The notes below the pieces were generated by a model. That model was not told where the DNA came from, did not search any database, and saw only the letters and a program-made list of their open reading frames with translations. Below are positions 2,465 through 62,486 of a stretch of 64,000 bases of DNA, in pieces (position 1 is the first letter of the stretch; every line of letters starts with the position of its first letter). Made by a program: the position numbers and the translations under genes. The stretch lies in the NCBI RefSeq assembly GCF_000152705.1, contig NZ_CH672413.1, positions 2,083,978-2,147,977 of the forward strand, read 5' to 3'. Origin of the DNA: Janibacter sp. HTCC2649. Lineage in GTDB: Bacteria > Actinomycetota > Actinomycetes > Actinomycetales > Dermatophilaceae.

Positions 2465-2482
2465 GTATGCCGCCCGCTCGCC
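2465..2482 (+). repeat. Dispersed intergenic repeat GTATGCCGCCCGCTCGCC
   Basis: Full-length copy of the repeat described in the findings, between the membrane-protein gene and phosphofructokinase. It matches the copies at 7670-7687 and 53631-53648 in 16 or 17 of 18 positions. Confidence 0.7.
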
Positions 2483-2488
2483 TTTCGC

Positions 2489-3688
2489 TCAGCCGTGACC
2501 GATCGAGGTGCGCAGCTCCGCGAACCAGGGTGCGGCGACGTCGAACTTCTTGCCTCCGGCGACGCGCGGGAACTCGACCGCGCGCAGCTCGTTGCCGCGC
2601 TCCTCGTCCTCACCCACGAGACCGGACTCGCCCCGGAGAGCGGCGTCAACGGCATACTCCGTGCATTGTCTGATGAGCGCGAGGTCCTCGTCGCCAGCAG
2701 CGGCCGAGCGGGAGAAGTAGCCGGACTTCTGGACCATGACCTTCTCGGCACCGAGGAGCTGCGCGAACTGCTTGCCGAACCACGCGCCGGGGTTGACCTT
2801 GTCGAGCTGGACGTGGCCGAACGGGTCGACCGGCACCTCTTGCCCGGCGGCTTCGAGCTCGGCGACGACCTCGGCCACGCCAGCGCCCTCGGACAGGAAG
2901 ATGTTGACGCAGCCGACCTCGTCCATGATCGCCTTGAGACGCTCACTCTCGCCGGCGAGGTCGATGTGGAGCTCGGGCACGAAGACGGCGTGGACGTCCC
3001 AGCGGCGGGAGTCGAGCCCGACGCCGGGCAGCCATTCCTGACCGGCGACCCACGCGTGGTGGCGGCGGGCGGTCTCGGCCGTGAGCCAGCCACAGTGACG
3101 CCCCATGACCTCGTGGATGATCAGCATCCGCGGGTTGGACGAGTGCTCGGCGAGGATGTTGCGGGCAAAGATCGCACCCTGCTCGGCGGCGGTCCAGGCG
3201 CCGAGCGACTGCCGGATCGGGATGATGTCGTTGTCGATCGTCTTGGGCAGTCCGACGACCGTGAGCGGGTAGTCGTGCTCGGCGAGGTAGGCCGCGAGGT
3301 CGGCTGCGGTGGTGTTGGTGTCGTCGCCGCCGATGGTGTGGAGCACGTCGACGCCATCGGCCGTGAGCTGCTCGGCCGCGACCTGCAGCGGGTCCTGACC
3401 CTCCTGGACGAGGCCGCGCTTGACGCAGTCGGCGACGTTGGTGAGCTTGACCCGGCTGTTGCCGATCGGCGAGCCACCGAACTTGTGCAGCAGTGCGGCA
3501 CCGGCGCGGACCTCGGGGGTGACCTCGACCGAGCGGCCGGTGAGCAGACCGGCATACCCGTTCTGATAACTGATGATCCGCACGTCCGGCGCCAGCTCGG
3601 TGTAGCGCTCGATGAGTCCACCCACCGCTGACGAGAGGCAGGGCGCGAGGCCACCAGCGGTGAGCAGGGCGACGGTCTGGACGGGCAT
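2489..3688 (-). CDS. Pyrophosphate-dependent phosphofructokinase
   Basis: The 399-residue protein converts fructose-6-phosphate to fructose-1,6-bisphosphate in glycolysis. It has the PFK fold motifs TAGGLAPCLSS near the N terminus, GGDDTNTT (120-127) and PKTIDND (148-154). Known family rules say that GGDD instead of GGDG, with the Lys of PKTIDND, favours PPi over ATP as phosphoryl donor, which makes the step reversible. The catalytic Asp is in TIDND and MGRHCGW follows as usual. Start ATG 3688 has AGGAG eight bases upstream; an in-frame GTG at 3709 lacks a ribosome site. It stands alone, with no glycolytic neighbour. Confidence 0.9.
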   Translation of the reverse strand: MPVQTVALLTAGGLAPCLSSAVGGLIERYTELAPDVRIISYQNGYAGLLTGRSVEVTPEVRAGAALLHKFGGSPIGNSRVKLTNVADCVKRGLVQEGQDPLQVAAEQLTADGVDVLHTIGGDDTNTTAADLAAYLAEHDYPLTVVGLPKTIDNDIIPIRQSLGAWTAAEQGAIFARNILAEHSSNPRMLIIHEVMGRHCGWLTAETARRHHAWVAGQEWLPGVGLDSRRWDVHAVFVPELHIDLAGESERLKAIMDEVGCVNIFLSEGAGVAEVVAELEAAGQEVPVDPFGHVQLDKVNPGAWFGKQFAQLLGAEKVMVQKSGYFSRSAAAGDEDLALIRQCTEYAVDAALRGESGLVGEDEERGNELRAVEFPRVAGGKKFDVAAPWFAELRTSIGHG

Positions 3689-3794
3689 GGGCTGCTCTCC
3701 TGAGATCACGGGACGGACTGGGCGTCAGTCTCTCAGTGTGAGCGGCGACACAGGCAGCACTCGACCGACAGGTGGACGCTCGGCGCCCGAAGTG

Positions 3795-5055: not shown

Positions 5056-5073
5056 AGGCTGAGTGCGCCGCGA

Positions 5074-5158: not shown

Positions 5159-5189
5159 AAAGTGATGGCGCGGTCAGAGAGTGGCTCGG

Positions 5190-6260
5190 TCAGAGGGTGT
5201 TGGCGACCAGCTCGGCGGTCTGCAGCATGTTGAGGGCAGCACCCTTGCGCAGGTTGTCGCCACAGACGAAGAGGTCGAGGGTGCGCGGGAAGTCGATGGC
5301 CTGCCGCAGCCGACCGACGAAGCGCGGGTCCGCGCCGACGATGTCGACGGGTGTGGGGTACTCCCCCTGGTCCGGGTCGTCGAGGACGACGACGGCCGGC
5401 GCCTCGACGAGGGCCTGGCGCGCCTTGGCCACCGTGATCGACTTCGCGAACGTCGCGTGCACCGACACGGAGTGGGTCGAGACGACAGGGACCCGCACAC
5501 ACGTCGCCGACACCTTGAGGTCGGGCATCCCGAGGATCTTGCGGGTCTCCTGGCGGATCTTGGACTCCTCCGAGCTCCACCCGTCACCGACGTGGGACCC
5601 CGCGAAGGGCAGGACGTTGAGTGCCAGCGGCCCGCCGAAGATGCTCGGGCCGAGCTCGTGGTCGATCGCCCGACGCACGTCGCCCGGGCGCATCCCGAGC
5701 TCACGGTCACCGGCGACGACGGCGATCTCGTCATGGAGCCGGCTCATGCCTGCCCGGCCGAGTCCTGAGGCCGCCTGGAAGCTCGTGACGACGAGCTCGG
5801 TGAGCTGCCACTGCGCGTGCAGCACGGCGAGCACGTCGATCATCGTCATGACGGTGGCGCCGGGGTTGGCGATGACACCCTTGGGCCGATCGTTGACGGC
5901 CTCCGGGTTGATCTCCGGCACGACGAGAGGCACAGCGGGGTCGCGGCGGAACGTCGGGCTGTTGTCGATGACGATGGCCCCACGCTCGGCCGCGATCGCC
6001 GCCCACTTGGCGGAGATCTCCGGCGGCACGTCCACCACGGCGACATCGACGCCGTCGAAGAACTCTGGGGTCAGGGCCTGGACGACCAAGTCCTCGTCAG
6101 CCACACGGCATACCTTGCCGACGTCCTCGGCCCCAGCGGCAAGGCGCACCTGGCCCCAGATGTGTCGTCGCATCGGCAACACGTCGAGGACAACGGTGCC
6201 CACGGCTCCAGTCGCTCCGACGATGGCCAGGGTCGGCGGTGCTGTAGTCACAGCGGTCAT
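5190..6260 (-). CDS. asd: Aspartate-semialdehyde dehydrogenase homologue, catalytic Cys replaced
   Basis: The 356-residue protein has the NADP-binding GATGAVG motif (about 15-21) and the ASADH landmarks TSFQAASG (Gln162), ATCVRVPV (Arg256), THS (His263) and a C-terminal DNLRKGAALN. ASADH reduces aspartyl phosphate to the semialdehyde for lysine, diaminopimelate, methionine and threonine synthesis. At the nucleophile site, where the family has N-P-x-C-T, this sequence reads ANPGATV: codon GCC, Ala135. Without that Cys the usual acyl-enzyme cannot form. It lies 28 bases after lysC, the normal operon order. I chose ATG 6260 over the longer frame because it falls just after lysC and gives the usual N terminus. 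It may be inactive, use another chemistry, or be backed up elsewhere. Confidence 0.85.
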   Translation of the reverse strand: MTAVTTAPPTLAIVGATGAVGTVVLDVLPMRRHIWGQVRLAAGAEDVGKVCRVADEDLVVQALTPEFFDGVDVAVVDVPPEISAKWAAIAAERGAIVIDNSPTFRRDPAVPLVVPEINPEAVNDRPKGVIANPGATVMTMIDVLAVLHAQWQLTELVVTSFQAASGLGRAGMSRLHDEIAVVAGDRELGMRPGDVRRAIDHELGPSIFGGPLALNVLPFAGSHVGDGWSSEESKIRQETRKILGMPDLKVSATCVRVPVVSTHSVSVHATFAKSITVAKARQALVEAPAVVVLDDPDQGEYPTPVDIVGADPRFVGRLRQAIDFPRTLDLFVCGDNLRKGAALNMLQTAELVANTL

Positions 6261-7669: not shown

Positions 7670-7687
7670 GTATGCCGGTCGCTCGCC
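7670..7687 (+). repeat. Dispersed intergenic repeat GTATGCCGGTCGCTCGCC
   Basis: Copy of the 18-base dispersed repeat, between the FMO-like gene and lysC. It differs from the 2465 copy at two positions. Confidence 0.65.
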
Positions 7688-10483: not shown

Positions 10484-11164
10484 TCAGTCGTCGGGGTCGG
10501 TGGCGGGGCGTTCGTTGTAGCTGTCCACCCGTTCCTGCCCGGTGAGGGCGGCGATCGAGTCCATGACGTCGTCGGTGAGCTGGCGACGGGCACGCCCGGC
10601 GGGCAGGCCGGCATACGCCGAAGGCAGGATCGGCTTCCCGAACGCGATGGTGACGTCGGCGAATCGCAGCCCGCGCCTGTCGGCAGGCTGGACCCTGTCG
10701 GTGCCGATGAGACCCACAGGAACGACGGGGACGTCTGCGGTGAGGGACAGGAACGCGACGCCGGTCTTGCCGCGATAGAGGCGGCCGTCACGCGAGCGCG
10801 TGCCCTCGGGATAGATGCCGAATGCCTTGCCGTCGCGCAACACCGTGAGCGCGAGGTCGAGCGAATCCTTGGCACCACCAGCGTCGTCGCGGTCGACCGG
10901 GATCGCGTCGCCAGCCTCCATGAAGCCGCGAACGAGTCGTCCCTTGATGCCCGTGCCGATGAAGTAGTCGTGCTTGGCGAGGAACGACACCTTGCGCGGT
11001 GCGGCGACCGGGATCGCGAAGCTGTCGATGAAGGAGAGGTGGTTGCTCGCGAGGAGCACGCCGCCCTCCTTGGGGACGTTGTCCTTGCCGAGGATCTTCG
11101 GGCGCCAGATCGCGTGCGAGAGCGACATCATGGCGGTCCGGCCGACCCAGTAGTACGTGCTCAT
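10484..11164 (-). CDS. 1-acyl-sn-glycerol-3-phosphate acyltransferase-like protein
   Basis: The 226-residue protein has the acyltransferase catalytic motif NHLSFIDS (the H-x4-D form) and the glycerol-phosphate-binding EGTRS motif, both typical of PlsC, which makes phosphatidic acid at the membrane. DVPVVPVGLIGTDRVQP is the third conserved block. ATG 11164 overlaps the dnaX stop in an ATGA arrangement, so it is cotranslated with dnaX. It occupies the place between dnaX and recR where many bacteria have ybaB. It could act on another glycerolipid. Confidence 0.88.
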   Translation of the reverse strand: MSTYYWVGRTAMMSLSHAIWRPKILGKDNVPKEGGVLLASNHLSFIDSFAIPVAAPRKVSFLAKHDYFIGTGIKGRLVRGFMEAGDAIPVDRDDAGGAKDSLDLALTVLRDGKAFGIYPEGTRSRDGRLYRGKTGVAFLSLTADVPVVPVGLIGTDRVQPADRRGLRFADVTIAFGKPILPSAYAGLPAGRARRQLTDDVMDSIAALTGQERVDSYNERPATDPDD

Positions 11165-13551
11165 GCGTCCTCTTCGTGGATGACTTTGCCGCCGAGGACT
11201 CGCTCGATCACGGGAACGCCAACCTCCCCGAGGCCTTCCATGTCTTCGTCGTCGTCGCTGCGTGCGGAGTCGTCGGCGACCTGCGGCTCGTCGGGGTCGG
11301 GTTCGGACGCGACGGCCACCTTGGCGCGTGCGAACGGGCTCACCGCCTCGTCCGTGGCGCCTCCGCTGGCCCACGCAGGGGCGGTTGCGCCGTCGGCGGG
11401 TCCGCTCCCCCACTCGGCTTGCGCTGTGGGCGGCTGACTTGGCACGTATGCCGCCTGCTCGCCTTCGCGGTCCGCCTGCCCTTGCGCTTTGGCGCCGTTG
11501 GCCTCGGCCCGGGCCTGCGCCGACTGCTGGTTCTGGGCCGGACGGGCCTGCTCGGTGCGGGGTGCGGCCACGGGCTCGGGACGGTTGGGGTCGATGGTCG
11601 CGACCCCGGGGACGCCTCCGGCGGGAGCGGAGCCATCGGCGGGCACACCCTCGACGCGGGTGTCGATGCCGAGGACGTCGATGAGCGCCTGCTGCACGTA
11701 GGTCGCATGCGGTCCGCGGCGGAAGGTGTTGGCGAGACCGGTCGTCGAGATGCCGAGGAGCAGCCGCTCCCCGTCGTAGTCGAGGACCTGGGCGTGCTCG
11801 GACACGAACGTCCACGTCGTGCGGCGGAGCTCGAAGACCTTGGCGAGGACGTCGGGCCAGGAGCGCCGGATGGCCGCCGTGTCGAGTCCGGCCGGGCGTG
11901 CGGCAGGGGCTTGCTGGGGCGGGGCATCGACCGGGTCCTGAGCCACAGGGGCCGCGACAGGCTCCGAAGTCTGCTGGGCAGGCTGCTGCGGCGGGGACTG
12001 CGGTTGTTGCTGGGGCGCTTGGAACTCGGGAGCCTGAGGCGCGGACTGCTGCTGCGGCTCTGGCGCGCGTTGCGGCTCTCGGGGCTGCTGGTAGTGGTCC
12101 TCGGGCTCGATGAACTCGGGCTCGTCCAGCTCGGGCGGCTCGTCCATGGACTGCTCGGGAACGACGGACGCAGGGGCGGGAGCGGCGACGTTCTGCCGGG
12201 GCGGCTGGAGATCCTGTTCGGTCTTCGGTTGGACCGCCGGGGCGACCGGCTGCACCGGCGCCTGGACGGGCTGAGCCTGCGCCGGCTGCTGCACCTGAAC
12301 CGGCTGCGACTGCTGCACCGGCGGACTGGGCGGACTCGGCTGGCGCACCTGCGCCGAGGGCGGAGCGGCAGCCGCACCCGTCGGAACTCCGCCGACGTCA
12401 AGGCGACGTTCGAGACGATCCAGGCGAGCGGCATACCCCGCTTCTCCGGCAGCGCCGGGCAGCAGCAGGCGAGCCGCGATGAGCTCGAGCTGGAGGCGCG
12501 GCGCCGTCGCACCGGTCATCTCGGAGAGTCCGGCGTTGACGATGTCGGCGGCGCGCGAGAGGGCGCCGGGGCCGAACGCGGCCGCCTGCTGGCGCATGCG
12601 CTCGAGCTGGTCCGGGGGCAGGGCACGCAAAACAGCAGAGGCGCCATCGGGCACCGCCGCGACGACGATGAGGTCACGCAGCCGCTCGAGCAGGTCCTCG
12701 ATGTAGCGACGAGGGTCGAGCCCGGTCTCGATGACCCGCTCGATCGACGAGAAGGCGCCCGCACCATCGCCCGCGGCGAAGGCATCGATCGCGGCGTCGA
12801 GGAGCTCGCTGTCGGTGAAGCCGAGGAGCGCGGCGGCCGACTCATAGGTCAGTCCCTCGGCGCTCGAGCCGGCGATGAGCTGGTCGAGCACGGAGAGCGA
12901 GTCACGCACGGACCCGCCACCGGCGCGCACGACGAACGACAGGACACCCGGCGCCACCGCGACCTTCTCGGAGACGCAGAGCTTCTCCATGTATTCGGTG
13001 AGCTGCCCCGGCGGCACGAGGCGGAACGGGTAGTGGTGGGTGCGGGAACGGATCGTGCCGATGACCTTCTCGGGCTCGGTCGTCGCGAAGATGAACTTCA
13101 CGTGCTCCGGCGGCTCCTCGACGATCTTGAGCAGCGCGTTGAAGCCCTGCGGCGTCACCATGTGCGCCTCGTCGATGATGTAGATCTTGTAGCGACTCTG
13201 CGCCGGGCCATAACTGGCGCGTTCGCGCAGGTCACGGGCGTCGTCGACACCACCGTGGCTGGCCGCGTCGATCTCGATGACGTCGACCGTGCCGGCGCCA
13301 CCGCGGGCCAGCGCCACGCAGGAGTCGCACTCGCCACACGGGGTCGGCGTCGGGCCCTGCTCGCAGTTGAGGCAGCGGGCGAGGATGCGGGCACTCGTCG
13401 TCTTGCCACACCCGCGCGGTCCGCTGAAGAGATAGGCGTGGTTGACGCGTCCCGTCCGCAGCGCCTGCATGAGCGGCTCGGTCACGTGCTCCTGCCCGAT
13501 GACGTCGACGAACGTCTCGGGGCGATAGCGGCGGTACAGGGCGGTGCTCAC
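11161..13551 (-). CDS. dnaX: DNA polymerase III subunits gamma/tau
   Basis: The 796-residue protein is the clamp-loader ATPase. The start MSTALYRRYRPETF is the canonical DnaX N terminus. Walker A is GPRGCGKT (44-51), a four-Cys zinc module spans residues 63-78 (LNCEQ...PCGECDSC), and Walker B/DEAH-like IIDEAHM and sensor FIFATTEPEKV follow. Residues of about 400-580 form a long Pro/Gln/Glu-rich linker, followed by a tau-type C-terminal part. No programmed frameshift site for gamma is obvious. The GTG start at 13551 lies seven bases after a -10 TAGGTT (13564-13559), so the mRNA is probably leaderless. Confidence 0.96.
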   Translation of the reverse strand: MSTALYRRYRPETFVDVIGQEHVTEPLMQALRTGRVNHAYLFSGPRGCGKTTSARILARCLNCEQGPTPTPCGECDSCVALARGGAGTVDVIEIDAASHGGVDDARDLRERASYGPAQSRYKIYIIDEAHMVTPQGFNALLKIVEEPPEHVKFIFATTEPEKVIGTIRSRTHHYPFRLVPPGQLTEYMEKLCVSEKVAVAPGVLSFVVRAGGGSVRDSLSVLDQLIAGSSAEGLTYESAAALLGFTDSELLDAAIDAFAAGDGAGAFSSIERVIETGLDPRRYIEDLLERLRDLIVVAAVPDGASAVLRALPPDQLERMRQQAAAFGPGALSRAADIVNAGLSEMTGATAPRLQLELIAARLLLPGAAGEAGYAARLDRLERRLDVGGVPTGAAAAPPSAQVRQPSPPSPPVQQSQPVQVQQPAQAQPVQAPVQPVAPAVQPKTEQDLQPPRQNVAAPAPASVVPEQSMDEPPELDEPEFIEPEDHYQQPREPQRAPEPQQQSAPQAPEFQAPQQQPQSPPQQPAQQTSEPVAAPVAQDPVDAPPQQAPAARPAGLDTAAIRRSWPDVLAKVFELRRTTWTFVSEHAQVLDYDGERLLLGISTTGLANTFRRGPHATYVQQALIDVLGIDTRVEGVPADGSAPAGGVPGVATIDPNRPEPVAAPRTEQARPAQNQQSAQARAEANGAKAQGQADREGEQAAYVPSQPPTAQAEWGSGPADGATAPAWASGGATDEAVSPFARAKVAVASEPDPDEPQVADDSARSDDDEDMEGLGEVGVPVIERVLGGKVIHEEDA

Positions 13552-13644
13552 GGCGTCCAACCTAGTCGCCGTGAACGACAGCCGGTATGCCGCGTTCACC
13601 AGCCTGTGGAGGGGCTCGCGGCAGCGGGTCGCTAGCGTGGCGCC

Positions 13645-14297: not shown

Positions 14298-15689
14298 ATG
14301 TCCGAGACCCACGCGAGCGATGCCGAACGGCTCGCCGACACCGTCCACGTCCTCCACGGATCGGGTGGCAATCCCGCCCGCAAGGAAGTGGCGTATGCCG
14401 CGTACGTCGCCGTCATCGTCGTGGGGCTCTACGGCTTCCCGTTGCTGCGCGCTCTCGTCATTGCGGCCGACCGGGACACCATGGCGTCGGCGCTGCGCTC
14501 GCCCTGGTCGGCGCTGGTCCTGATCGTCGCCGTGGCGGCTGTGGCGCTGGCTGCGCGAGAGGCCGGGCGGGTGCGCGGGCCGATCGTTGCTCCTGTTCCG
14601 TGGATCGACCATGTCGTGGCGTCGTCCATCGACCGGTGGGCGAGCTTGCGGTCGTGGTTCGGATACTCACTGTTTGCAGCGCTTTTCGCGGGTGGTCTGG
14701 CTGGGTTGGCAGTCGGCGGCGGGTTCGCCGGCGCACATGCCGCCGGGTGGTGGATCCTGCCGGTCGGTCTCGTCGTGGGGTTGCTCGTCGGACTGCTCGC
14801 CGGCACCGCGTGGCTCGTCGGCCAGAGTCGCCTCTCTCCCCCGCCGCCGCCCGGGAGCGGGCCGTGGTGGGTGCGCGAGGTGCGACGACTCGGGGTCCAC
14901 GACCTGCGCACGCAGTCGTCCCGGTCCAACCGCATCGTCGGTGGAGTCCAGGCCGGTGACCTGCGCGCCGTCCGGCTCGAGGCCGCTCGGCCCGTCACGC
15001 GCGGTCGCGATCTGCGGCTGCGGCATCGTGGGCCGATCATGACGTTGGTCGCGAGGGACGTTCTGGGACTTCGGCGCTCGCCCGGCGCCGGTCTCGTTGG
15101 CTTGCTCCTGTGCGCTGCCGCTGGTGGCGGAATGGGCGCGACCCTCGGCAGCACCGCCGTCCCGCCGCTCGTCGGATTTGTGGCGGGGCTGGTGAGCCAC
15201 CTCGGCTTCGGCGCGCTGTCCGAGGGGCTGCGTCTTGAGGCCGACACCATGGGGACGCCTCCTCTGTTCGGTGCGCCTCCGGTGCGGGCGGCTGCAGCGC
15301 ACCTGCTGGTTCCCGGCGCGATCCACCTCGTCACAACCGTTCTCGTGGGCTGCATCACGGGGGTTTCCCTGGGCGCCGACCTCGGCTCGGTCCTGCCCTG
15401 GCTCGTCATGACCACGGTGTTCCTCGCGGGCGGAGCTCTCCTCGCGGCCTACCGTGGGCGTCCGCCGTCGAGCCCGTTCAACCCGGTCCCGAGTCCTCAG
15501 ACCGTCGCCATCTGGTACGCGTTCCCACTACTCCTCGGCACCCTGCTCATCGGCGGGATGGTCTGGGGCGCAACGCAATTCCCCACCAATGGCTACTTCG
15601 TCATCGCGACCTGGGTCGCTGGTTTCTGGCTCGTGTACGCCGGCCTCAACCGGGTGCAGCGAGAGAACCTCGCCCACCGCGACGTCTGA
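14298..15689 (+). CDS. Membrane protein, probable ABC exporter permease
   Basis: The 463-residue protein has about nine to eleven hydrophobic segments, such as VAVIVVGLYGFPLLRALVI near residue 35 and a pair around residues 130-175. A soluble loop with PPPPPGSGPWW at about 175-190 separates two membrane halves. It starts five bases after the ATPase gene, so the two are cotranscribed. Related unnamed permeases accompany small ATPases in actinobacteria. The substrate is not indicated by the sequence. No ribosome site is strong, consistent with translational coupling to the ATPase. Confidence 0.75.
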   Translation: MSETHASDAERLADTVHVLHGSGGNPARKEVAYAAYVAVIVVGLYGFPLLRALVIAADRDTMASALRSPWSALVLIVAVAAVALAAREAGRVRGPIVAPVPWIDHVVASSIDRWASLRSWFGYSLFAALFAGGLAGLAVGGGFAGAHAAGWWILPVGLVVGLLVGLLAGTAWLVGQSRLSPPPPPGSGPWWVREVRRLGVHDLRTQSSRSNRIVGGVQAGDLRAVRLEAARPVTRGRDLRLRHRGPIMTLVARDVLGLRRSPGAGLVGLLLCAAAGGGMGATLGSTAVPPLVGFVAGLVSHLGFGALSEGLRLEADTMGTPPLFGAPPVRAAAAHLLVPGAIHLVTTVLVGCITGVSLGADLGSVLPWLVMTTVFLAGGALLAAYRGRPPSSPFNPVPSPQTVAIWYAFPLLLGTLLIGGMVWGATQFPTNGYFVIATWVAGFWLVYAGLNRVQRENLAHRDV

Positions 15690-15700: not shown

Positions 15701-16135
15701 CTACGACGACTTGGCCGCGCGGCGGCGCTCGGGCAACCCAGCGGCATACAGGGCTGCGCCGACGAGCACGGGCTGGAAGAAGAGGCGGATCAGCCGCTTG
15801 GTGTCCGTGTCGAGGCCGAACGCGCTGACACCGTCGACGTACTGCGCGATGTTGCCCGGGAAGATCGCGACATAGAACGCGGCGAGCGCGAGGCCGGTCG
15901 TGCGGCGGTACTTCGGCAGCGCGAGCAACGCCAGGCCGAGCCCCACCTCGGCGACACCGGATCCGAGCACGACAAGGTCCTCATCGACAGGCACCCAGCT
16001 CGGAACCTGCGCCCGGAACTCATCCCGGGCAACGGTGAGGTGCGTGACCCCAGCCCCGGCCATGAAGACGCCGAGCGCGAGACGGGTGAGGTTCTGCGAG
16101 AGCGTGGCCGGAACCTTGCGCGTGAGGAAGCCCAT
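15701..16135 (-). CDS. DoxX-family membrane protein
   Basis: The 144-residue protein has four hydrophobic segments and the pattern AAFYVAIFPGNIAQY near residues 84-98, typical of short DoxX-like proteins. DoxX members are membrane components linked to redox or thiol stress in some actinobacteria; no specific role can be claimed here. A -10 TACGGT (16147-16142) ends six bases before ATG 16135, so the mRNA is likely leaderless. It is convergent with the permease gene, with 11 bases between the stops. Confidence 0.85.
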   Translation of the reverse strand: MGFLTRKVPATLSQNLTRLALGVFMAGAGVTHLTVARDEFRAQVPSWVPVDEDLVVLGSGVAEVGLGLALLALPKYRRTTGLALAAFYVAIFPGNIAQYVDGVSAFGLDTDTKRLIRLFFQPVLVGAALYAAGLPERRRAAKSS

Positions 16136-16158: not shown

Positions 16159-16818
16159 TCAGCCGGCGTTGACGACTCCGTGCTCGTAGGCGAACACCAC
16201 GGCCTGGGCCCGATCGCGCAGCCCCAGCTTGGCGAGCACCCGCGACACGTGCGTCTTGACCGTCTGCTCCGCGACGAACAACCGCGTCGCGATCTCGACG
16301 TTGGACAGTCCGCGGGCGATGAGTTCGAGCACCTCGAGCTCGCGCGGCGTCAGTTCGCGCAGCCGCGGCGAGTCCTTGGGCACACCCGACCGCGACTTGG
16401 TCACCTCAGCAATGAGCCGTTTCGTCACCGAGGGCGCGAGGAGCGAATCCCCCGCCGCCACAACGCGTACGGCCCGCGCGAGCTCCTCCGACGGCGCGTC
16501 CTTGAGCATGAATCCGCTCGCCCCGATGCGCAACGCCTCATAGACGTAGTCGTCCACGTCGAACGTCGTCAGCATCAACACGTGCGGGCGATCCGGACTC
16601 GGCGACGCAAGAATCGTGGCGGCTGCGTCGAGACCGTTGACCTCCGGCATACGCACATCCATCAGGACCACGTCGGGCTTGAGCCGGGAAACTTCGCGCA
16701 CGGCCTCCGCCCCGTTGGCCGCCTCACCGACGACATGGAGGTCCGGTTGGGCATTGAGAAGGGCGCCGAGCCCCTGCCGCACCATCGCCTGGTCGTCGAC
16801 GATGACCACTGTGATCAT
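16159..16818 (-). CDS. NarL/LuxR-type response regulator
   Basis: The 219-residue regulator has a receiver domain with acidic pocket VDDQ (8-11), phosphoacceptor Asp in VLMDVRMPEVNG (about residue 54), Thr in MLTTFD and Lys in GFMLKDAP. A LuxR helix-turn-helix follows (LTPRELEVLELIARGLSNVEIA, recognition helix QTVKTHVSRVLAKLG). ATG 16818 lies six bases after the kinase stop TGA; a TTG three codons earlier overlaps that stop and is less likely. It forms an operon with the upstream histidine kinase and would bind DNA once phosphorylated. Targets are unknown. Confidence 0.93.
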   Translation of the reverse strand: MITVVIVDDQAMVRQGLGALLNAQPDLHVVGEAANGAEAVREVSRLKPDVVLMDVRMPEVNGLDAAATILASPSPDRPHVLMLTTFDVDDYVYEALRIGASGFMLKDAPSEELARAVRVVAAGDSLLAPSVTKRLIAEVTKSRSGVPKDSPRLRELTPRELEVLELIARGLSNVEIATRLFVAEQTVKTHVSRVLAKLGLRDRAQAVVFAYEHGVVNAG

Positions 16819-16823: not shown

Positions 16824-18119
16824 TCAACCTAGTCCGCTGACCTGCGGGCGGCCCGTCAGCGGCACCGTCGCGATGACGACGAACCCTGCGCCCACCGGCT
16901 CTGCCTCGAACGTTCCGCCGACTGCGCGGACCCGTTCGAACATGCCGGGTATGCCGTTCCCTCCGCCTTCGTCGTCGCCGCCAGTCCCAGCGCCCTCGCC
17001 GTTGCGTCCGCGCGGATGGTCGGGTTCGCGACCAACGGCGCGGACGTTGTGAGTGGGCGGCGGGGAGTTGCGGACCATGAGCCGGGCCCAGCCGGAGTCC
17101 TCTTCAAGCGTCAGCTCGACCGCGGCACCCGGCGCGTGACGGGCCGCGTTGGCCAGCGACTCCTGGGCCACGCGATAGAGCACGAGCGCGGTCCCGGGCG
17201 GCACCTGGGTCGGGTCGAGACGCAAACGGGAGGTGAGCGGCATACCCGCCGCCTTCGAAGCCTTGACCAGCGCTGGGAGCTGGGTGAGATCCGGCAGGGG
17301 GGCGGTCTTGACAGGGCCGCGTTCGTCGCGCAGGACGCCCAGGACCGAGCGCACCTCGGTGAGGGCCTGACGCGCTGACCCCTCGATGGCCGAGAACTCC
17401 GCGACAACCTCGGGATCGGTGACCCCGTGGCGGATCGGGGCACTCTGCGCCTGCACGACGATCATCGACATGTGGTGCGCGACGACGTCGTGGAGCTCAC
17501 GGGCGATGCGACTGCGCTCCTCGACGACGGCTCGGCGGGCGCGTTCGGTCTCGACCTCGTCCTTCTGGACGGCGAGCTGGCGGCGCGAGATGACGAGCCA
17601 GCGCACGAGGAGTGCGACGCCCATGACGAGCGCCTGACCGAGCGCCCACGGCTTGAGGTCGTCGGGCATGGCGACCACGAGGAGGACGCCGGTCGCGATG
17701 ATGACGACGGGGATCTCGCGCCACCGACCCCACAGGCCCACGGCCACGATCGTCGCGAGCAGCACGAGGAACTGGACGACCGGCCACGGCATCGGTGAGT
17801 CGAAGAACGCTGGAACGACCGCCCACCAGAGCACCGACACGGCTGCCGCGATCGCCCAGCCGACGAAGGGCGCCCGCCTCAGCAGGACCAGGGGCACGGC
17901 CTCGGCCAGTGCGAGGACCGGCAGCAGCGACACCGGCACGTCGTGGGTGAGGGAGATCGTGGACCAGCCGATGATGAACATGACCAGGGCGAGAAGGCCG
18001 AGCACGGCGTCGTTGTGACCGGCGACCCACCGCAGCCCATGCCACAGAGGTCGCCACAACGGGCGCATCAGCCGACGGACTGCACGCCCGCTGGCTCCGA
18101 TCACTCTGCCTCCGACCAT
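16824..18119 (-). CDS. NarL-family sensor histidine kinase
   Basis: The 431-residue protein has about five membrane helices, a short coiled-coil linker (VQKDEVETERARRAVVEERSR), the HisKA_3 box ELHDVVAHHMSMIVVQA with the phosphorylated His in ELHD, and an ATPase domain with N box ESLANAARHAPG. Its glycine-rich lid is replaced by a long polar loop (RGRNGEGAGTGGDDEGGG), longer than usual. I chose ATG 18119 because TACTGT (18132-18127) ends seven bases before it; ATG 18158 and GTG 18182 extend the frame upstream but lack such a site. The sensed signal is unknown. Confidence 0.9.
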   Translation of the reverse strand: MVGGRVIGASGRAVRRLMRPLWRPLWHGLRWVAGHNDAVLGLLALVMFIIGWSTISLTHDVPVSLLPVLALAEAVPLVLLRRAPFVGWAIAAAVSVLWWAVVPAFFDSPMPWPVVQFLVLLATIVAVGLWGRWREIPVVIIATGVLLVVAMPDDLKPWALGQALVMGVALLVRWLVISRRQLAVQKDEVETERARRAVVEERSRIARELHDVVAHHMSMIVVQAQSAPIRHGVTDPEVVAEFSAIEGSARQALTEVRSVLGVLRDERGPVKTAPLPDLTQLPALVKASKAAGMPLTSRLRLDPTQVPPGTALVLYRVAQESLANAARHAPGAAVELTLEEDSGWARLMVRNSPPPTHNVRAVGREPDHPRGRNGEGAGTGGDDEGGGNGIPGMFERVRAVGGTFEAEPVGAGFVVIATVPLTGRPQVSGLG

Positions 18120-29722: not shown

Positions 29723-29740
29723 CGGGAGCGGACGGCATAC
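29723..29740 (-). repeat. Dispersed intergenic repeat GTATGCCGTCCGCTCCCG
   Basis: Minus-strand copy of the 18-base repeat, just after the stop of the broken membrane-protein gene. Sixteen positions match the copy at 53631-53648. Confidence 0.6.
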
Positions 29741-40548: not shown

Positions 40549-40566
40549 GGCGAGTCGACGGCATAC
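40549..40566 (-). repeat. Dispersed intergenic repeat GTATGCCGTCGACTCGCC
   Basis: Minus-strand copy of the 18-base repeat in the 73-base gap before the HerA-like gene, with two mismatches to the 53631 copy. Confidence 0.6.
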
Positions 40567-49677: not shown

Positions 49678-49745
49678 TTTGTATGCCGTGACATTCTTCC
49701 GTTTCTCGGCGTGCCGGAAGTCGTGCGTTGTGCTTCACTACGAAC

Positions 49746-53630: not shown

Positions 53631-53648
53631 GGCGAGCGGACGGCATAC
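53631..53648 (-). repeat. Dispersed intergenic repeat GTATGCCGTCCGCTCGCC
   Basis: Minus-strand full copy of the 18-base repeat, in the 119-base gap after gntR. It differs from the 2465 copy at one base. Confidence 0.7.
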
Positions 53649-54618: not shown

Positions 54619-55482
54619 GTGCCGGCTCCTCCGGCGGCGATCGTGCTCACCCGCGACCTGTCGACCACTCAGGCGCTCGACGTCATCGTGCGCTCCTGTG
54701 GGCGCCAGGTCCTCGACCAGGTGCATCCCCTGCTCGACACCCGCGACCCGGTGGCCCTGCACGACATGCGGGTGGGGATCCGCCGCCTGCGCGCGGCCCT
54801 GTCCCTGCTTCGTCGGCCCCTCGGCGACGGCGAGAAGATCGCCTGGGTGAGCATCGAGACCCGCGACCTCGCCGCACCGCTCGGCCACGCCCGCGACCTC
54901 GACGTCGCCGTGCGCGATCACGGCGATCGACTCACCGGCAGTTCCCGACGCAAGCTGCTCGAGCTGCGCGAGGGTGCCTACGACGAGGCGCTCGCGGTCG
55001 TGGGTTCGGATCGCTGGCACGACCTCACCGCCCACCTCGACCGGTTCCTCCGCAAGATCCACGACGACGTTCCGGTCGACCCGCCCATCGCCGACGCTGC
55101 GGGCGAAGCCCTGGACCGGCGGTTCCGTCGCGTCTCGCGGCGCGGCGCCCTCATCGAGCGATCGCACGCCCCGGAGCGCCACCGGGTGCGCATCGAGGCC
55201 AAGAAGCTGCGCTACGGCGCACAGTTCTTTTCCACCCTGTATGCCGTCACGCCCGGTTCCGACTCGGCCGCCGGTTCCGCTGCCGAGGACTTCACCCACT
55301 CCGTGGCTGCTCTTCAGGACGCGTTGGGCGACCTGCGCGACATCCAGACGACCCGCCACATCCTTGACCTGGTCGGCGCCACGCCGCCGCACATCGAGAC
55401 CGCACCCCTGGTCGCCCGCGCCGTCGCCGCGCACGCCGACATCGTTGCCCGCGGCCCCTTCTGGCGACCCCCGCTGCGGTGA
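54619..55482 (+). CDS. CHAD-domain protein
   Basis: The 287-residue protein is a CHAD domain alone: two four-helix bundles with the conserved His/Arg/Lys residues HDMRVGIRRLRAAL (about 49-62) and HRVRIEAKKLRYGAQFF (about 193-209). CHAD domains bind polyphosphate on a basic surface. Its GTG start at 54619 is two bases after the LytR_C stop, and an in-frame ATG at 54544 inside that gene is less likely. Its stop overlaps the next GTG. Confidence 0.88.
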   Translation: MPAPPAAIVLTRDLSTTQALDVIVRSCGRQVLDQVHPLLDTRDPVALHDMRVGIRRLRAALSLLRRPLGDGEKIAWVSIETRDLAAPLGHARDLDVAVRDHGDRLTGSSRRKLLELREGAYDEALAVVGSDRWHDLTAHLDRFLRKIHDDVPVDPPIADAAGEALDRRFRRVSRRGALIERSHAPERHRVRIEAKKLRYGAQFFSTLYAVTPGSDSAAGSAAEDFTHSVAALQDALGDLRDIQTTRHILDLVGATPPHIETAPLVARAVAAHADIVARGPFWRPPLR

Positions 55483-56624
55483 GGACCCTCCGCTCGAGCG
55501 GCGCGGTCCGAGCCGGCGCAGCCTTCTTCGCGTCGCGGATCCTCCTCGCCCTCACGGTCCTTGTCGTCGCGGGCGCCACCGGCCAGGGCGCCGTCCATCA
55601 CCAGTGGGCCACGGGAATCTGGTGGCTCGACCGCTTCTCGGTGTGGGACAGCTACCACTTCATCCGCATCGCCACACTGGGCTATCTGCCTCCGGGGCTG
55701 GACTGCTGCGACCAGGCCTACTTCCCCGGTTATCCACTGCTCATGGCCGCCGTCGCTCCCCTGACGGGCGGAAACATCACTGCCGCAGGCCTGCTCATCA
55801 GCCTCGTGGCGGGAGCCGTCGCCGCCGCTCTCCTGTGGATGCTCGTCGCCGAAGACGCGCGAGGAGGCAAGGTCGCGGCCCGACGGGCGGTCACCCTGCT
55901 GGCCCTCGCACCGACCGGCTTCTTCTTCGTCGCCGTCTACACCGAGGCGCTGTTCCTCGCGCTGGCCCTGGGCGCCTGGCTGCTCGCCACGCGCCGCCAC
56001 TGGTGGTTTGCCGGGATCCTCGCCGCCTTCGCCACGGGCGTGCGCGTCAACGGTCTCTTCCTCGCCGCGGCCCTGGCCGTCATGTATGCCGTCCAGTGGC
56101 ATCACGACGGCCGCCCCCGACCGCGCCTCGACGTCCTCGCTCTCGGCCTGCCCGCCGTGAGTGTCGCAGCCTTCATGACCCACCTCCACGGTCGCACCGG
56201 CTCCTGGGATGCCTGGCGTGAGGCCGAGCACGAAGGCTGGGACCGTGCCACCGCGTGGCCGTGGGAGGGCCTGTCCACGGCTTGGCGGTCGCTGCTCGAC
56301 AGCCCCGACGCGTGGCTCGCGGCCAGCCGAGCCGCCGACATCGCGGCAGTCCTGCTCGGTGTCGCCCTGTGCATTCTCCTTGCGAGACAGCGCCGTTGGC
56401 CAGAACTCACGTACCTCACCCTCACGGTCGGCGTCGTCCTCTGCTCCAACCTTTGGGTCTCCACGCCCCGCTACGCCTTGACCTGGTTCCCCGCCTACCT
56501 GGCCATCGCCACGATGCGGGACCACCCGGCATACCGGCGCGTGTATGCCGTGGGGCTGGGACTGTCGGCCGCCCTACTTCTGGGTGCCACGTGGGCCGTC
56601 GCGACGCGACACTGGGTGGCCTGA
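55479..56624 (+). CDS. PIG-V-like mannosyltransferase (GT-C membrane protein)
   Basis: The 381-residue protein has about ten helices. The first external loop has RFSVWDSYHFIRIATLGY, with the conserved Asp after Trp of PIG-V-type GT-C enzymes, and AYFPGYPLLMAA follows. Bacterial members use polyprenyl-phosphate sugars to modify proteins or lipids at the outer face of the membrane. The acceptor is unknown. It is coupled to the CHAD gene by a GTGA overlap. Confidence 0.85.
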   Translation: MRTLRSSGAVRAGAAFFASRILLALTVLVVAGATGQGAVHHQWATGIWWLDRFSVWDSYHFIRIATLGYLPPGLDCCDQAYFPGYPLLMAAVAPLTGGNITAAGLLISLVAGAVAAALLWMLVAEDARGGKVAARRAVTLLALAPTGFFFVAVYTEALFLALALGAWLLATRRHWWFAGILAAFATGVRVNGLFLAAALAVMYAVQWHHDGRPRPRLDVLALGLPAVSVAAFMTHLHGRTGSWDAWREAEHEGWDRATAWPWEGLSTAWRSLLDSPDAWLAASRAADIAAVLLGVALCILLARQRRWPELTYLTLTVGVVLCSNLWVSTPRYALTWFPAYLAIATMRDHPAYRRVYAVGLGLSAALLLGATWAVATRHWVA

Positions 56625-56699
56625 CACGGACTCGCGCAGCCGGCATACAGGTGCATGAGTCACAATCTGTCGACATCGATCGATCTTCAGGAGTGTCTC

Positions 56700-57437
56700 G
56701 TGGCCCCGTCCGGCAGTGGCAGCAAGAAGGTGCGCGCCAACCAGCGCAACGCCTCCGACCGCGTTTCGCAGATGCGCAAGGAACAGCAGGCGAAGGACCG
56801 TCGTCGGCTCATCGCGATCTGGGGTGCGGCCGCCGTGACCATCGCGATCATCGTCGGCGCGGTGACCTTCGCGGTCATCCACAGCAACGCGAACAAGCCG
56901 AACCTGTCGGCCGTGAAGTCCTACAAGTACGACGCGGGCGCGCACACCAAGGACCAGGTCACCTACAAGGAGTCCCCGCCCGTGGGTGGAGAGCACAACC
57001 CCGTGTGGCTCAACTGTGGTGTCTACACAACGCCAGTGCCCAAGGAGAACGCCGTCCACTCGATGGAGCACGGCGCCGTGTGGATCACCTACAAGCCGGA
57101 CCTGTCGGCGGCGGACATTGCGAAGCTCAAGGAGATCACTCCTGACACGTATGCCGTCCTGTCGCCCTACGAGGGCCTGACCTCGCCCGTCGTGATCTCG
57201 GCGTGGGGCAAGCAGCTCGCCCTCACTGGTGTGAACGACAACCGGCTCGAGGCCTTCATCAAGGAGTACCGCCAGGGTCCGCAGACGCCGGAGCCCAACG
57301 CGCTCTGCACCGGTGGCACTGACGGCACCGACGAGAACGCCACGCCGCAGACCCCGGTCTCGCCGAGCGCCTCGCCTTCGGCCACGCCGTCCACCTCTGT
57401 CTCGCCGTCGGCCACTCCCTCGCCGTCGAAGTCGTGA
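56700..57437 (+). CDS. DUF3105 membrane-anchored protein
   Basis: The 245-residue protein has one helix (IAIWGAAAVTIAIIVGAVTFAVI, about residues 35-57) and an external DUF3105 domain with PPVGGEHNPVWLNCGVYTTPVP, HSMEHGAVWITYKP and ISAWGKQLAL; the conserved His residues of GGEHN and MEHGAV suggest metal binding. The C-terminal 35 residues are Ser/Pro/Thr-rich. GTG 56700 has CAGGAG six bases upstream; an ATG 15 codons earlier does not. It is cotranscribed with a DUF305 gene, a usual pair. Confidence 0.9.
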   Translation: MAPSGSGSKKVRANQRNASDRVSQMRKEQQAKDRRRLIAIWGAAAVTIAIIVGAVTFAVIHSNANKPNLSAVKSYKYDAGAHTKDQVTYKESPPVGGEHNPVWLNCGVYTTPVPKENAVHSMEHGAVWITYKPDLSAADIAKLKEITPDTYAVLSPYEGLTSPVVISAWGKQLALTGVNDNRLEAFIKEYRQGPQTPEPNALCTGGTDGTDENATPQTPVSPSASPSATPSTSVSPSATPSPSKS

Positions 57438-59352: not shown

Positions 59353-59377
59353 TTTGCGGCACCGACAAGGAGGTCAG

Positions 59378-60286: not shown

Positions 60287-60303
60287 CCACCCAAGGAGCC
60301 CCC

Positions 60304-61875
60304 ATGCCGCTACCGATGGACCTCACCGTCCTTGCCGATGACCTCGGTGACAAGCCCGCCTACGTCCTCGCGGACACGGGTGAATCCCTGAGCTATCGGG
60401 AGCTGGAGGAGAGCTCGAACCGCGTTGCCCACCTTTTCCGCAACCTGGGACTCAGGCGCGGCGATCACGTAGCCATCCTCATGGAGAACCGCCTCGACGC
60501 CTTCCCCATCTATTGGGCAGCCCAGCGAACGGGCCTCTACTACACGCCAGTCAACTGGCACCTCACCCGGGACGAGGCGGCATACATCGTCGACAACTGC
60601 GAGGCCAAGGTTCTCGTCTCCTCGGTCGACCTCGAGGACATCGCTGCACATGCAGCTGCGACCGCCACGCACCTCGAACAGCGATATGTCGTCGGCGGCG
60701 AGGTCGATGGAGTCGACTCCCTCGAGTCGGCGGTGGCAGTCCTCCCCACGACCCCAGTCGAGAACCAGTCCGAGGGCTACTACATGTTCTACAGTTCGGG
60801 CACGACCGGGCGGCCCAAGGGGATTCTGCCGGCGATGGCAGATGTGCCGTTCGGCACGGGCCTGACGCTCGACCATCAGTTGCCGACGTTCGGCTTCTCC
60901 CACGCGGCGACCTACCTCAACACCGGGCCGCTCTACCACGCGGCGCCCGTCGGTTGGTCGATGGGCACCATCCGCAACGGTGCAACAGCCGTGTTCATGA
61001 GTCGGTTCGATCCCGAGCTCACCCTGCGGGTCATCCAGGATCTGGGGGTCACTCATGCGCAGTTCGTGCCGACCATGTTCGTCCGGATGCTCAAGCTCCC
61101 CGACGAGGTTCGACAGGCGTACGACGTCTCCTCGCTCATGGTGGCGATTCACGCTGCCGCTCCCTGCCCCATCACGGTCAAGGAAGCGATGATCGACTGG
61201 CTGGGGCCCAAGATCGTCGAGTACTACGCGGGCAGTGAGTCCAACTGCTTTTTCGTCATCACCAGCCCCGAATGGTTGGAGCACAGGGGATCCGTGGGCA
61301 AGGCCGTCATCGGCACTGCCCACGTGTGCGACGCGCATGGACACGAGTTGCCCTCCGGGGAAATCGGCCAACTCTGGTTCGACGGACCCGACTTCGAATA
61401 CCACCAGGACCCCGACAAGACAGCGTCGGCGCACGACGCACGCGGGTGGAGCACGCTCGGCGACCTCGGCTGGCTCGATGACGAGGGCTACCTCTATCTC
61501 GCGGACCGCCGAACCGACCTCATCATCAGCGGGGGCGTCAACATCTATCCGCGTGAGATCGAGGACGCTCTCGCCCTACACCCCGCTGTCCAGGACATCG
61601 CCGTCATCGGTGTTCCCGACGACGAGATGGGCCAGCGCGTCCACGCCATCGTCCAGGTGGCAGATGGCGTCACGCCGGGTGCCGAACTCGCGGCCGACCT
61701 CGCGCAAGAGGCATCGAGTCGGATCGCGGGCTTCAAGCTTCCGCGCACGATCGAGTTCGTCGATGACTTCCCGCGGCTCCCCAGCGGCAAGGTCCTTCGT
61801 CGGAAACTCATCGCCGACTACTCCCCCGCCCGAGCCCTCACCGTCCCCCGAGCAGCAAAGAAGGTCCAGACATGA
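60304..61875 (+). CDS. Fatty-acyl/aryl-CoA synthetase (FadD-like)
   Basis: The 523-residue ANL enzyme activates a carboxylic acid with ATP and CoA. P-loop YSSGTTGRPKG (about 163-173), core VEYYAGSESNCF, STLGDLGWLDDEGYLYLADR with the ATP-binding Asp, hinge DLIISGGVNIYPREIED and catalytic Lys in PSGKVLRR are all present. The N terminus lacks a long extension, as in medium-chain or aromatic/steroid acid ligases. AAGGAG lies six bases before ATG 60304. It overlaps the next gene by ATGA. Confidence 0.92.
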   Translation: MPLPMDLTVLADDLGDKPAYVLADTGESLSYRELEESSNRVAHLFRNLGLRRGDHVAILMENRLDAFPIYWAAQRTGLYYTPVNWHLTRDEAAYIVDNCEAKVLVSSVDLEDIAAHAAATATHLEQRYVVGGEVDGVDSLESAVAVLPTTPVENQSEGYYMFYSSGTTGRPKGILPAMADVPFGTGLTLDHQLPTFGFSHAATYLNTGPLYHAAPVGWSMGTIRNGATAVFMSRFDPELTLRVIQDLGVTHAQFVPTMFVRMLKLPDEVRQAYDVSSLMVAIHAAAPCPITVKEAMIDWLGPKIVEYYAGSESNCFFVITSPEWLEHRGSVGKAVIGTAHVCDAHGHELPSGEIGQLWFDGPDFEYHQDPDKTASAHDARGWSTLGDLGWLDDEGYLYLADRRTDLIISGGVNIYPREIEDALALHPAVQDIAVIGVPDDEMGQRVHAIVQVADGVTPGAELAADLAQEASSRIAGFKLPRTIEFVDDFPRLPSGKVLRRKLIADYSPARALTVPRAAKKVQT

Positions 61876-62486
61876 GCCCCAGGCCCCGACTGGGAGAGCC
61901 CACCCGGACAGCCGTCGTCGTCGTCGAGTGCCAGGAGGGCGTGCTCGGCACGACCTCGGTACTGCCGGACCTCGCCGGCCCGGCCGAGTCTCTCGTTGGG
62001 CCCCTGAGTGAGCTGCTCACCTTCGCACGTACTGCTGGCGTCCCGGTCATTCATGCGACGTATGCCGGACCGCTGGGTGGGACGGCCATGGGCACCGCGC
62101 CGCTGTGGCGGGCTCTCGCGCCGGTCACCGATGTCTGGGACGACGATCACCCGGGAACCCGGGTCCTCGCCGCGCTGCTCGGTGAGGGTGATCTCGTGCT
62201 CCCTCGGCACCATGGCCTCAACCCGGCCAAGGGCACCGAACTCCTCCCTGTCCTGCGTGGCAAGGGTGTCGACACGATCATCCTCACCGGGGTCTCGGTC
62301 AACCTGGCCCTGCCGCTGGTCGCCGGCGAGGCGACCGAAGAGGGCTTCCACGTCGTCGTTCCCCGCGATGCCGTCGCGGGCACCCCGACGGACTACGCCG
62401 AGCAGGCGCTGCGCCATACCCTCGGAATGCTGGCGGCCCTGACGACGGTCAGTGACCTGAGGGAGCACTGGCAGTCTGGTCGCTGA
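61872..62486 (+). CDS. Isochorismatase-fold protein with altered catalytic triad
   Basis: The 204-residue protein has the isochorismatase/cysteine hydrolase fold: TAVVVVECQEGVLG at the first strand, RTAGVPVIHATYA, RGKGVDTIILTGVSVNLAL and EEGFHVVVPRDAVAGTPTDYAEQALRHTL. The family uses an Asp-Lys-Cys triad. Here the first-strand Asp is Glu (VECQ) and the expected Cys after TGVSVN is in the run LAL, with no Cys. The Lys region reads RHHGLNPAKGTEL. It may be an inactive or altered enzyme in this cluster. Its ATG overlaps the FadD-like stop (ATGA). Confidence 0.82.
   Translation: MSPRPRLGEPTRTAVVVVECQEGVLGTTSVLPDLAGPAESLVGPLSELLTFARTAGVPVIHATYAGPLGGTAMGTAPLWRALAPVTDVWDDDHPGTRVLAALLGEGDLVLPRHHGLNPAKGTELLPVLRGKGVDTIILTGVSVNLALPLVAGEATEEGFHVVVPRDAVAGTPTDYAEQALRHTLGMLAALTTVSDLREHWQSGR

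Follow-up and report, generated by a model that had tools for sequence, protein, structure and literature searches.

The host of the window (the whole 64,000-nucleotide stretch of DNA analyzed here) is a Knoellia (Actinomycetota), a soil bacterium, and its genome is strewn with a non-palindromic octamer, GTATGCCG. Judging from sequence patterns, this octamer together with a weak extension probably serves Knoellia, as well as many genera related to it, as a DNA uptake sequence. Among the functions that an earlier, sequence-only reading of the window had offered for the octamer, an uptake-like sequence fits best.

The window holds 49 copies of GTATGCCG, 27 on the plus strand and 22 on the minus strand, the first starting at 2465 and the last ending at 62067 (table 1). 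The sequence-only reading had counted about 49, with the same split between strands. Its claim of over-representation also stands, but its expectation of two to three copies was if anything generous: 100 dinucleotide-preserving shuffles of the window average 0.97 copies (maximum 3) and an order-3 Markov model, which includes the motif's own words, expects 1.94. The whole genome (4.24 Mb) has 2,982 copies, one per 1.42 kb, and the near-even strand balance noted earlier extends across it (1,486 and 1,496). The reversed word, a control, occurs 59 times (35 + 24) and is ∼50 times rarer. In a 424 kb sample of the genome, GTATGCCG is the top enriched 8-mer (z 82) and the best 8-mer unrelated to it, CTCCCCCG, has a z of 14.4. 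Enrichment outlasts Markov correction, a check on composition bias that had been proposed earlier, with 543 exact copies in a 744 kb sample versus 6.3 expected under a Markov-4 model (∼85-fold), and the whole-genome counts agree. One-mismatch neighbors of GTATGCCG show no excess (24 words, 444 seen vs. 437 expected); the core is sharply bounded, with no mismatch tolerated.

Table 1. Copies of GTATGCCG in the window, all exact matches. Fractions give the Knoellia genomes in which a copy is kept.
Position	Strand	Setting	Kept in relatives
2465..2472	+	between genes	2/3 aligned (looser alignment), 2/2 (stricter)
2650..2657	-		2/7
3550..3557	-		7/7; beyond genus: L121, L122, L124, L126, L116
5041..5048	+	between genes	unaligned in looser Knoellia alignment
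6106..6113	-	in asd	5/7
7670..7677	+	between genes	7/7
10609..10616	-		7/7; beyond genus: L121, L122, L124, L126
11446..11453	+	just past ORF end 11437; coding by crude caller	7/7
12429..12436	-		5/5 aligned; GTATGCGG in Nostocoides F2B08
13585..13592	+	between genes	4/4 aligned
14393..14400	+		2/3 aligned
15742..15749	-		2/2 aligned
16645..16652	-		
16949..16956	+		
17238..17245	-		
18607..18614	+		
19241..19248	-		
21881..21888	+		1/1 aligned
22756..22763	-		
23197..23204	+		
26936..26943	-		
27609..27616	+		
29733..29740	-	between genes	
30004..30011	+		
32044..32051	-		
32288..32295	+		
33046..33053	-		
33302..33309	+		
36082..36089	-		
36500..36507	+		
38179..38186	+		
38666..38673	+	hairpin left arm, inside called gene	
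38688..38695	-	right arm of hairpin with 38666..38673	
40038..40045	+		
40559..40566	-	between genes	
43288..43295	-		
43809..43816	+		
45512..45519	+		
47383..47390	+		
49681..49688	+	between genes	
53641..53648	-	between genes	
55239..55246	+		
56084..56091	+		
56527..56534	-	inverted pair with 56543..56550, outward order	
56543..56550	+	inverted pair with 56527..56534, outward order	
56641..56648	-	between genes	
57149..57156	+		
60578..60585	-		
62060..62067	+		

Density of GTATGCCG is 1.17 per kb between genes, 0.59 per kb in genes, and 1.98 per kb in convergent gaps. A crude gene caller places 9 of the 49 window copies between genes, so the "about ten" given earlier was about right. Coding copies occupy all six phases, and the flanks of the word show weak sequence preferences only. 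Among 434 coding copies, 203 encode Tyr-Ala and 131 encode Ala-Tyr; the asd copy at 6106..6113 encodes Val-Cys-Arg in phase 0 (GTA-TGC-CGT), as the sequence-only reading had it. Its remark that the Tyr codon in GTATGCCG is unusually TAT is borne out as well. Where a Tyr codon has G before it and GCCG after it, TAT is used in 203 of 227 cases, versus 653 of 4,157 elsewhere.

Positions of GTATGCCG are conserved among relatives. In a stricter count that takes one locus per genome and removes overlaps, 64 of 75 comparisons with other Knoellia (85%; 17 sites, 12 genomes) show the word intact, whereas control words of the same composition are unchanged in 2,143 of 6,497 (33%). Conservation of intergenic copies had been proposed earlier as a check: they are kept in all 16 comparisons at 4 sites (control words, 607 of 3,223); under a looser alignment, a single further comparison, at 2465, shows a change. 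The use of six phases, the doubled intergenic density, and conserved positions, including those between genes, lend good support to the earlier view of a DNA-level signal. One island of 60 kb, chosen for its gap in copy positions, has 5 copies versus 44 expected; we infer that this island is mobile DNA.

Intergenic copies also occur as inverted pairs. Inward intergenic pairs number 9 compared to a simulated mean of 1.0 (maximum of 5 in 500), and outward intergenic pairs number 1 compared to 1.1; with genic pairs included, there are 12 inward and 9 outward. Genome-wide, there are 76 inward pairs, and in genome G050 there are 206. Folding was done on five chosen pairs, and the hairpin formed by the copies at 38666 and 38688 has an energy of −28.8 kcal/mol (z −6.8). 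Downstream of the core is a weak extension of about T/C-S-C-G-C-T-C, plus a T at +18 (counted from 0). This T is present at 210 of 538 sites, and all seven contexts, some of them small, show it elevated.

The word and its variants are distributed unevenly across the host's GTDB family. In 30 of 53 genera, GTATGCCG exceeds 400 copies, and some other genera have the one-base dialects GGATGCCG, GAATGCCG, and GTATGCGG. Perhaps GTACGCCG is a further one-base dialect; its signal is weak and, in the congener G144, does not stand out clearly (11 vs. 6.3). Another enriched word in the family, CGAAGGGG, has no likeness to GTATGCCG or its dialects. Within genera, GTATGCCG is near-absent or switched in G102, G142, G163, and G119. 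The last belongs to a genus (g44) with two words: G118 carries GTATGCCG, and a G119 piece of 5.3 kb carries GGATGCCG. At one place, window positions 12429..12436, Knoellia have GTATGCCG and Nostocoides F2B08 has GTATGCGG. Most alignable dialect sites fall elsewhere than on the GTATGCCG sites of relatives, with coincidence in 1 of 7 cases in L128 and 0 of 9 in L116.

Chi sites are abundant, short, and asymmetric and may differ between lineages; those of Escherichia coli, and of several further bacteria, have a skewed distribution along the replichore. It is possible, though unlikely, that GTATGCCG is a Chi-like hotspot that halts a RecBCD/AddAB/AdnAB-type nuclease and starts recombination, with dialects tracking changes in the enzyme. 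The word resembles Chi in being abundant, short, and non-palindromic, it is kept in place and scarce in one island, and the recognition word of a nuclease can change. Unlike Chi, it lacks replichore polarity: 266 copies are leading and 287 lagging (P = 0.40), with origin and terminus located by GC skew in just 39 stretches, and a polar Chi or KOPS-like site, as weighed earlier, is thus unsupported. The degree of enrichment over the Markov-4 model and the intergenic pairs resemble uptake sequences more, and sister genera with and without the word (G009/G051 and G035/G023) would imply the loss of a repair signal.

We give a similarly small chance to a binding site for a nucleoid, chromosome-organizing, or housekeeping protein, with one protein and one word per genus. 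Even strands, occurrence in all frames, and intervals a little more uniform than expected by chance (CV of 0.86 vs. 0.97, SD 0.04) are consistent with such a site, but scarcity in the island and pairing of intergenic copies speak against it. A housekeeping site should persist among congeners, and the near-absences and switches within genera therefore count against it.

Still less probable is the target of a DNA methyltransferase or self-marking defense system. A strict eight-base word that tolerates no mismatch is typical of enzymes, and the HIP1 octamer of cyanobacteria, likewise over-represented across whole genomes, is described as palindromic and linked to methylases (PMC4390886). GTATGCCG differs from HIP1 in being non-palindromic, in varying by genus, and in having no methylase link as far as tested. 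The word-rich genomes G015 (4,724 copies) and G042 (1,251 copies) have no match to the methylase families PF01555, PF07669, PF02384, and PF00145, and we reject these four as its methylases; the window's genome has no match to the first three and does have matches to PF00145. The methylation site suggested earlier is contradicted to the extent of these tests. There is practically no chance that the pattern arose without selection on the word, whether from a repeat that spreads or from biases in codons, dinucleotides, or mutation. The many Tyr-Ala and Ala-Tyr copies would fit such an origin, but against it stand the shuffles, the Markov excess, the rarity of the reversed word, the six phases, the weak flanking preferences, and conservation above that of control words.

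If GTATGCCG is an uptake sequence, natural transformation would begin when a surface receptor captures word-bearing double-stranded DNA from outside the cell. The receptor would probably belong to a Tad/Flp competence pilus or be linked to ComEA, and DNA would enter via ComEC and then recombine. Word-bearing DNA would be over-represented among recombinants, and the word would therefore spread and be held in place by molecular drive; newly acquired DNA would lack it. A change in receptor specificity would let a new dialect accumulate as old copies decay, and loss of specificity would leave copies to decay. It is the receptor, the uptake bias, and the drive that we infer. In favor of an uptake sequence are the abundance on both strands without replichore bias, the density and inward pairing of copies between genes, the extension, the conserved positions, and the dialects. 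Against it are competence genes that fail to track the word, the lack of a one-mismatch excess, the mostly non-coinciding dialect sites, the unlikeness of CGAAGGGG, the 12 inward versus 9 outward pairs once genic ones are counted, and word labels in a ComEC tree that hardly cluster beyond shuffled ones.

The DUS of Neisseriaceae is similar in density to GTATGCCG and even between strands. Neisseria has ∼1,900 copies, and Neisseriaceae dialects are reported to differ by one or two bases and to follow taxa, with two dialects at once in one genome and none in some members (Frye et al. 2013, PMC3630211). GTATGCCG is like DUS in its thousands of copies, its taxon-following dialects, and the existence of members without the word. 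Conserved positions across species and slightly altered words in some relatives are likewise traits of the tags of Neisseria and Haemophilus. Allowing one mismatch adds 21% to the DUS count of Kingella oralis (PMC3630211), whereas GTATGCCG has no one-mismatch excess; such an excess, reported for this one DUS genome, is no strict criterion of an uptake sequence. The core of eight bases is also shorter than the 10–12 of DUS, and Knoellia, unlike DUS hosts, are Gram-positive, carry Tad/Flp genes, and lack PilM. In Pasteurellaceae, the USS has a short core, and its copies lie within genes as well as in inverted repeats between them. An extended USS and two named USS dialects are described (PMC12616744). 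GTATGCCG shares the short core with a weaker extension and the combination of genic copies and intergenic inverted repeats, but it is an unrelated word in another host phylum.

Neisseriaceae and Pasteurellaceae are described as the only families in which uptake sequences are known (PMC12616744). Among the open-access papers listed by our searches, there was no uptake experiment in the GTDB family and no title that presents GTATGCCG as a genomic repeat. Working protocols for natural transformation are available for Micrococcus luteus. With more caution than for the uptake sequence itself, we lean toward a third, independent origin of self-recognizing DNA uptake, the first in Gram-positives. It would span the family and act via Tad/Flp pili. 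Besides the unrelated CGAAGGGG, it would comprise three or four dialects that differ by one base, and switches would form barriers to gene exchange between and within genera. If true, uptake tags can arise independently, on another pilus, and in a single-membrane cell. With many genera having gained, lost, or switched the word, a search for the receptor could proceed through comparison of sister genera, and the evolution of self-recognition would become testable in the family. It would also hint at which of these bacteria are transformable, and with which tag.

Competence genes are widespread in the family. The window's genome has comEA, comEC, and two tad clusters; across 60 genomes, ComEC and ComEA are each found in 57 and T2SSE-type ATPases in all 60. 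The type IV pilus protein PilM is found in 2 of 60 genomes and is absent from Knoellia, making a ComP-like receptor unlikely, and we reject a true type IV pilus as the carrier. The three genomes with no ComEC or ComEA match (G036, G040, and G041) are all word-rich and have fragmented assemblies (58%, 81%, and 95% complete; 330–760 contigs), and an assembly gap is a possible cause. ComEC, ComEA, and T2SSE are equally common in genera with and without GTATGCCG, so gene content does not predict the word. In a ComEC tree of 30 genomes, from which G044 is to be disregarded as very probably in the wrong frame (end branch of 5.9), word labels are hardly more clustered than when shuffled (91 of 500 as low). 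Sisters in this tree differ in word state, with none in G009 and high in G051, and likewise none in G035 and high in G023, each pair with support of 100/100.

The 8-base word GTATGCCG is present in exactly 49 copies in the window (27 plus, 22 minus), matching the approximate hand count of the sequence-only reading. Its expectation of two to three from base composition was, if anything, generous; dinucleotide-keeping shuffles give a mean of 0.97 (maximum 3). Across the genome (4,235,068 bases), the word occurs 1,486 times forward and 1,496 times reverse, and a backward-read control word 35 and 24 times. The suspected excess over a third-order Markov model was borne out in a 744 kb sample (the window and 34 stretches, with four stretches around the putative island described below omitted and motif copies masked for the model), where 543 copies were observed against 5.1 expected, or 6.3 at order 4. 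In the same sample, the 24 one-mismatch words together occur 444 times against 437 expected; thus, GTATGCCG is a unit with sharp boundaries. Other words are also enriched in stretches of this genome: CTCCCCCG, the next most enriched unrelated word, at 77 versus 17 in 424 kb, and ACTCCCCC at 37 versus 5. Three window positions carry the palindrome ATTGCGCAAT (a count of six over both strands), against an expectation of almost none.

Identity of the window asd protein is 83–89% to seven named Knoellia genomes, 63–71% to 18 further loci (Phycicoccus, Nostocoides, Tetrasphaera, Ornithinibacter, and unclassified MAGs), and 28–29% to two distant loci. As judged from protein sequence, the window organism belongs to Knoellia (Actinomycetota). 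GTATGCCG is abundant in each of the seven Knoellia loci (9 to 25 copies in 16–21 kb). There are none in seven Phycicoccus loci or the Nostocoides Soil756 locus, and 23 in the Phycicoccus elongatus locus. Counted once per site and genome over 17 sites and 12 other Knoellia genomes, the word is intact in 64 of 75 comparisons, which share ancestry and are not independent, versus 2,143 of 6,497 for words of the same composition, 24,866 of 86,512 for all other words, and 0 of 7 for TATGCC with other flanks. Intergenic copies proved conserved in relatives, as anticipated (16 of 16 at four sites, versus 607 of 3,223 for all words). In 9 of the 11 broken cases, at least two bases differ.

Placement relative to genes was analyzed in 39 stretches of the genome (824 kb including the window; 788 genes from a simple gene caller). 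The 553 copies comprise 434 genic, 104 intergenic, and 15 at gene edges, and all six coding phases are used, in line with the earlier claim of copies in other frames and in gaps. Tyr-Ala is indeed the common coding, with 203 genic copies ahead of 131 for Ala-Tyr. Copies occur at 0.59 per kb within genes and 1.17 per kb in intergenic sequence, rising to 1.98 per kb where the gap separates converging genes. Beyond the core, A is avoided at +8, and intergenic sites favor T-S-C-G-C-T-C at +8 to +14, partly because of recurring hairpins. T at +18 occurs in 210 of 538 sites against a base frequency of ∼0.16 and is elevated in all seven contexts, three of which hold just 9 to 30 sites.

Intergenic copies form nine inward-facing pairs (simulated mean 1.0, maximum 5 in 500 runs) and one outward pair; pooling genes and gaps, pairs at most 60 bases apart number 12 inward and 9 outward. 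With spacers of 2–26 bases, there are 76 inward pairs in the whole genome, 206, 65, 64, and 28 in genomes G050, G003, G015, and G039, respectively, and zero in G009 and G021, both of which lack GTATGCCG. Five hand-picked pairs fold with z of −6.8 to −10.5. Uptake sequences of Neisseria and Haemophilus form terminator hairpins, which the folded pairs resemble.

Among 186 genomes in 53 genera of the GTDB family, the count exceeds 400 in one or more genomes of 30 genera (highest G015, 4,724). Of the remaining 23, genera g17, g19, g20, and g48 hold about 150–320 copies, above their controls. Counts were 2 to 167 in each of 38 genomes from 19 other families of the order. In genera with CC before copies, the reversed-word control is raised and so serves only as a rough yardstick. 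Some genomes depart sharply from their genus: G102 has 37 copies versus 1,251–1,660 in four congeners, G142 has 19 versus 1,062 and 3,681, and G163 has 50. In G023 (L102, L103), most of 20 sites lie inside a longer common sequence, approximately GTATGCCGCTGGGCTC, more like a repeat family.

A search for over-represented words in sampled stretches uncovered dialects. GGATGCCG is over-represented in G033 (39 in 40 kb versus 5–11), G024, G107, L116, and a 5.3 kb piece of G119; GTATGNCG in G012 and G019; GTATGCGG in Nostocoides F2B08 (G027 and L131, one genome); and GGTATGCG, listed with GTATGCGG, in L127. Locus L128 has 20 GAATGCCG alongside 8 GTATGCCG. The weakest case is GTACGCCG (34–38 in 40 kb versus 7–14 in G030, G047, and G055), for which G144, from the same genus as G047, gives no clear signal. 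At one place, Nostocoides F2B08 has GTATGCGG where Knoellia and three further loci have GTATGCCG, and one GAATGCCG of L128 coincides with GTATGCCG of three loci. Most dialect sites lie off GTATGCCG sites: of those listed, 1 of 7 in L128 and none of 9 in L116 fall on one. Dialect change is thus partly a matter of sites arising afresh and earlier ones decaying, beyond rewriting in place. Both analyzed g37 genomes share the unrelated CGAAGGGG (G044 L085 and L086, 35 in 40 kb versus 4; G146 L201, 19 in 20 kb versus 2; a third gave only 1.4 kb), which may fill an equivalent role in this genus, where GTATGCCG is lacking. No such word was prominent in 40–69 kb samples of 11 genomes (G009, G010, G016, G018, G021, G048, G052, G056, G102, G142, and G163). 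Three genomes without GTATGCCG, namely G021 (L079–L080), L118, and G102 (L187–L188), carry an excess of the palindrome ATCGCGAT.

As a set, these traits closely match those of Neisseriaceae uptake sequences, which show thousands of copies, dialects, one mixed genome, and family members without the sequence (PMC3630211). Points of difference are the host, the pilus, the length of the core, and the lack of an excess of one-mismatch words for GTATGCCG. We consider it probable that GTATGCCG is a DNA uptake sequence: a receptor would recognize it, DNA carrying it would be taken up preferentially, and the resulting drive would maintain or spread it. The window genome has comEA adjoining comEC near the contig start and two tad clusters (CpaF-type ATPase, Flp pilin, and TadE/F-like proteins; the names Flp, TadE/F, and TadZ were assigned by inspection of sequences). 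According to a study of Micrococcus luteus, transformation requires tad genes there, and tad together with comEA/EC is said to be frequent in actinobacteria (PMC4322843). Almost every genome of the family has such genes, which therefore permit GTATGCCG without predicting it; three GTATGCCG-rich genomes with fragmented assemblies (G036, G040, G041) gave no ComEC or ComEA match. Methylase searches (two families in 47 genomes and the remaining two in 29) returned no match to any of four families in G015 and G042, and none to three of the four in the window genome.

The near-even strand balance first seen in the window holds more widely, with 266 copies oriented in the direction of replication and 287 opposed to it (p 0.40; a noisy GC skew puts the origin close to 0 and the terminus at about 2.15 Mb), and spacing is a little more regular than random (CV 0.86 versus 0.97, sd 0.04). 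That the word serves as a Chi-like signal we judge improbable, and a role as a chromosome-binding site seems equally doubtful. A stretch chosen because the list of GTATGCCG positions had a gap there (L066–L068) holds 5 copies against 44 expected; 6 of 10 proteins examined from it have Pfam matches, and it may be a mobile island.

Locations of the window, individual GTATGCCG sites, and Pfam matches in the GTATGCCG-poor stretch
Location	Feature	Observation
Contig, 2.08–2.15 Mb of 4.22 Mb	Window	
Window, 2465	GTATGCCG site	One changed case added to the intergenic comparisons under looser alignment
Window, 3550 and 10609	GTATGCCG sites	Intact in 7/7 Knoellia species and in more distant L121, L122, L124, L126; other letters in Phycicoccus jejuensis, Phycicoccus HDW14, Nostocoides Soil756 (all without GTATGCCG)
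Window, 7670 and 11446	GTATGCCG sites	Intact in 7/7 Knoellia species
G000 C1, 160–220 kb	Pfam match	M23/SLT/NlpC peptidoglycan enzyme
G000 C1, 160–220 kb	Pfam match	T5orf172 protein
G000 C1, 160–220 kb	Pfam match	Subtilase
G000 C1, 160–220 kb	Pfam match	DnaG-type primase
G000 C1, 160–220 kb	Pfam match	Two P-type ATPases, one with heavy-metal domain
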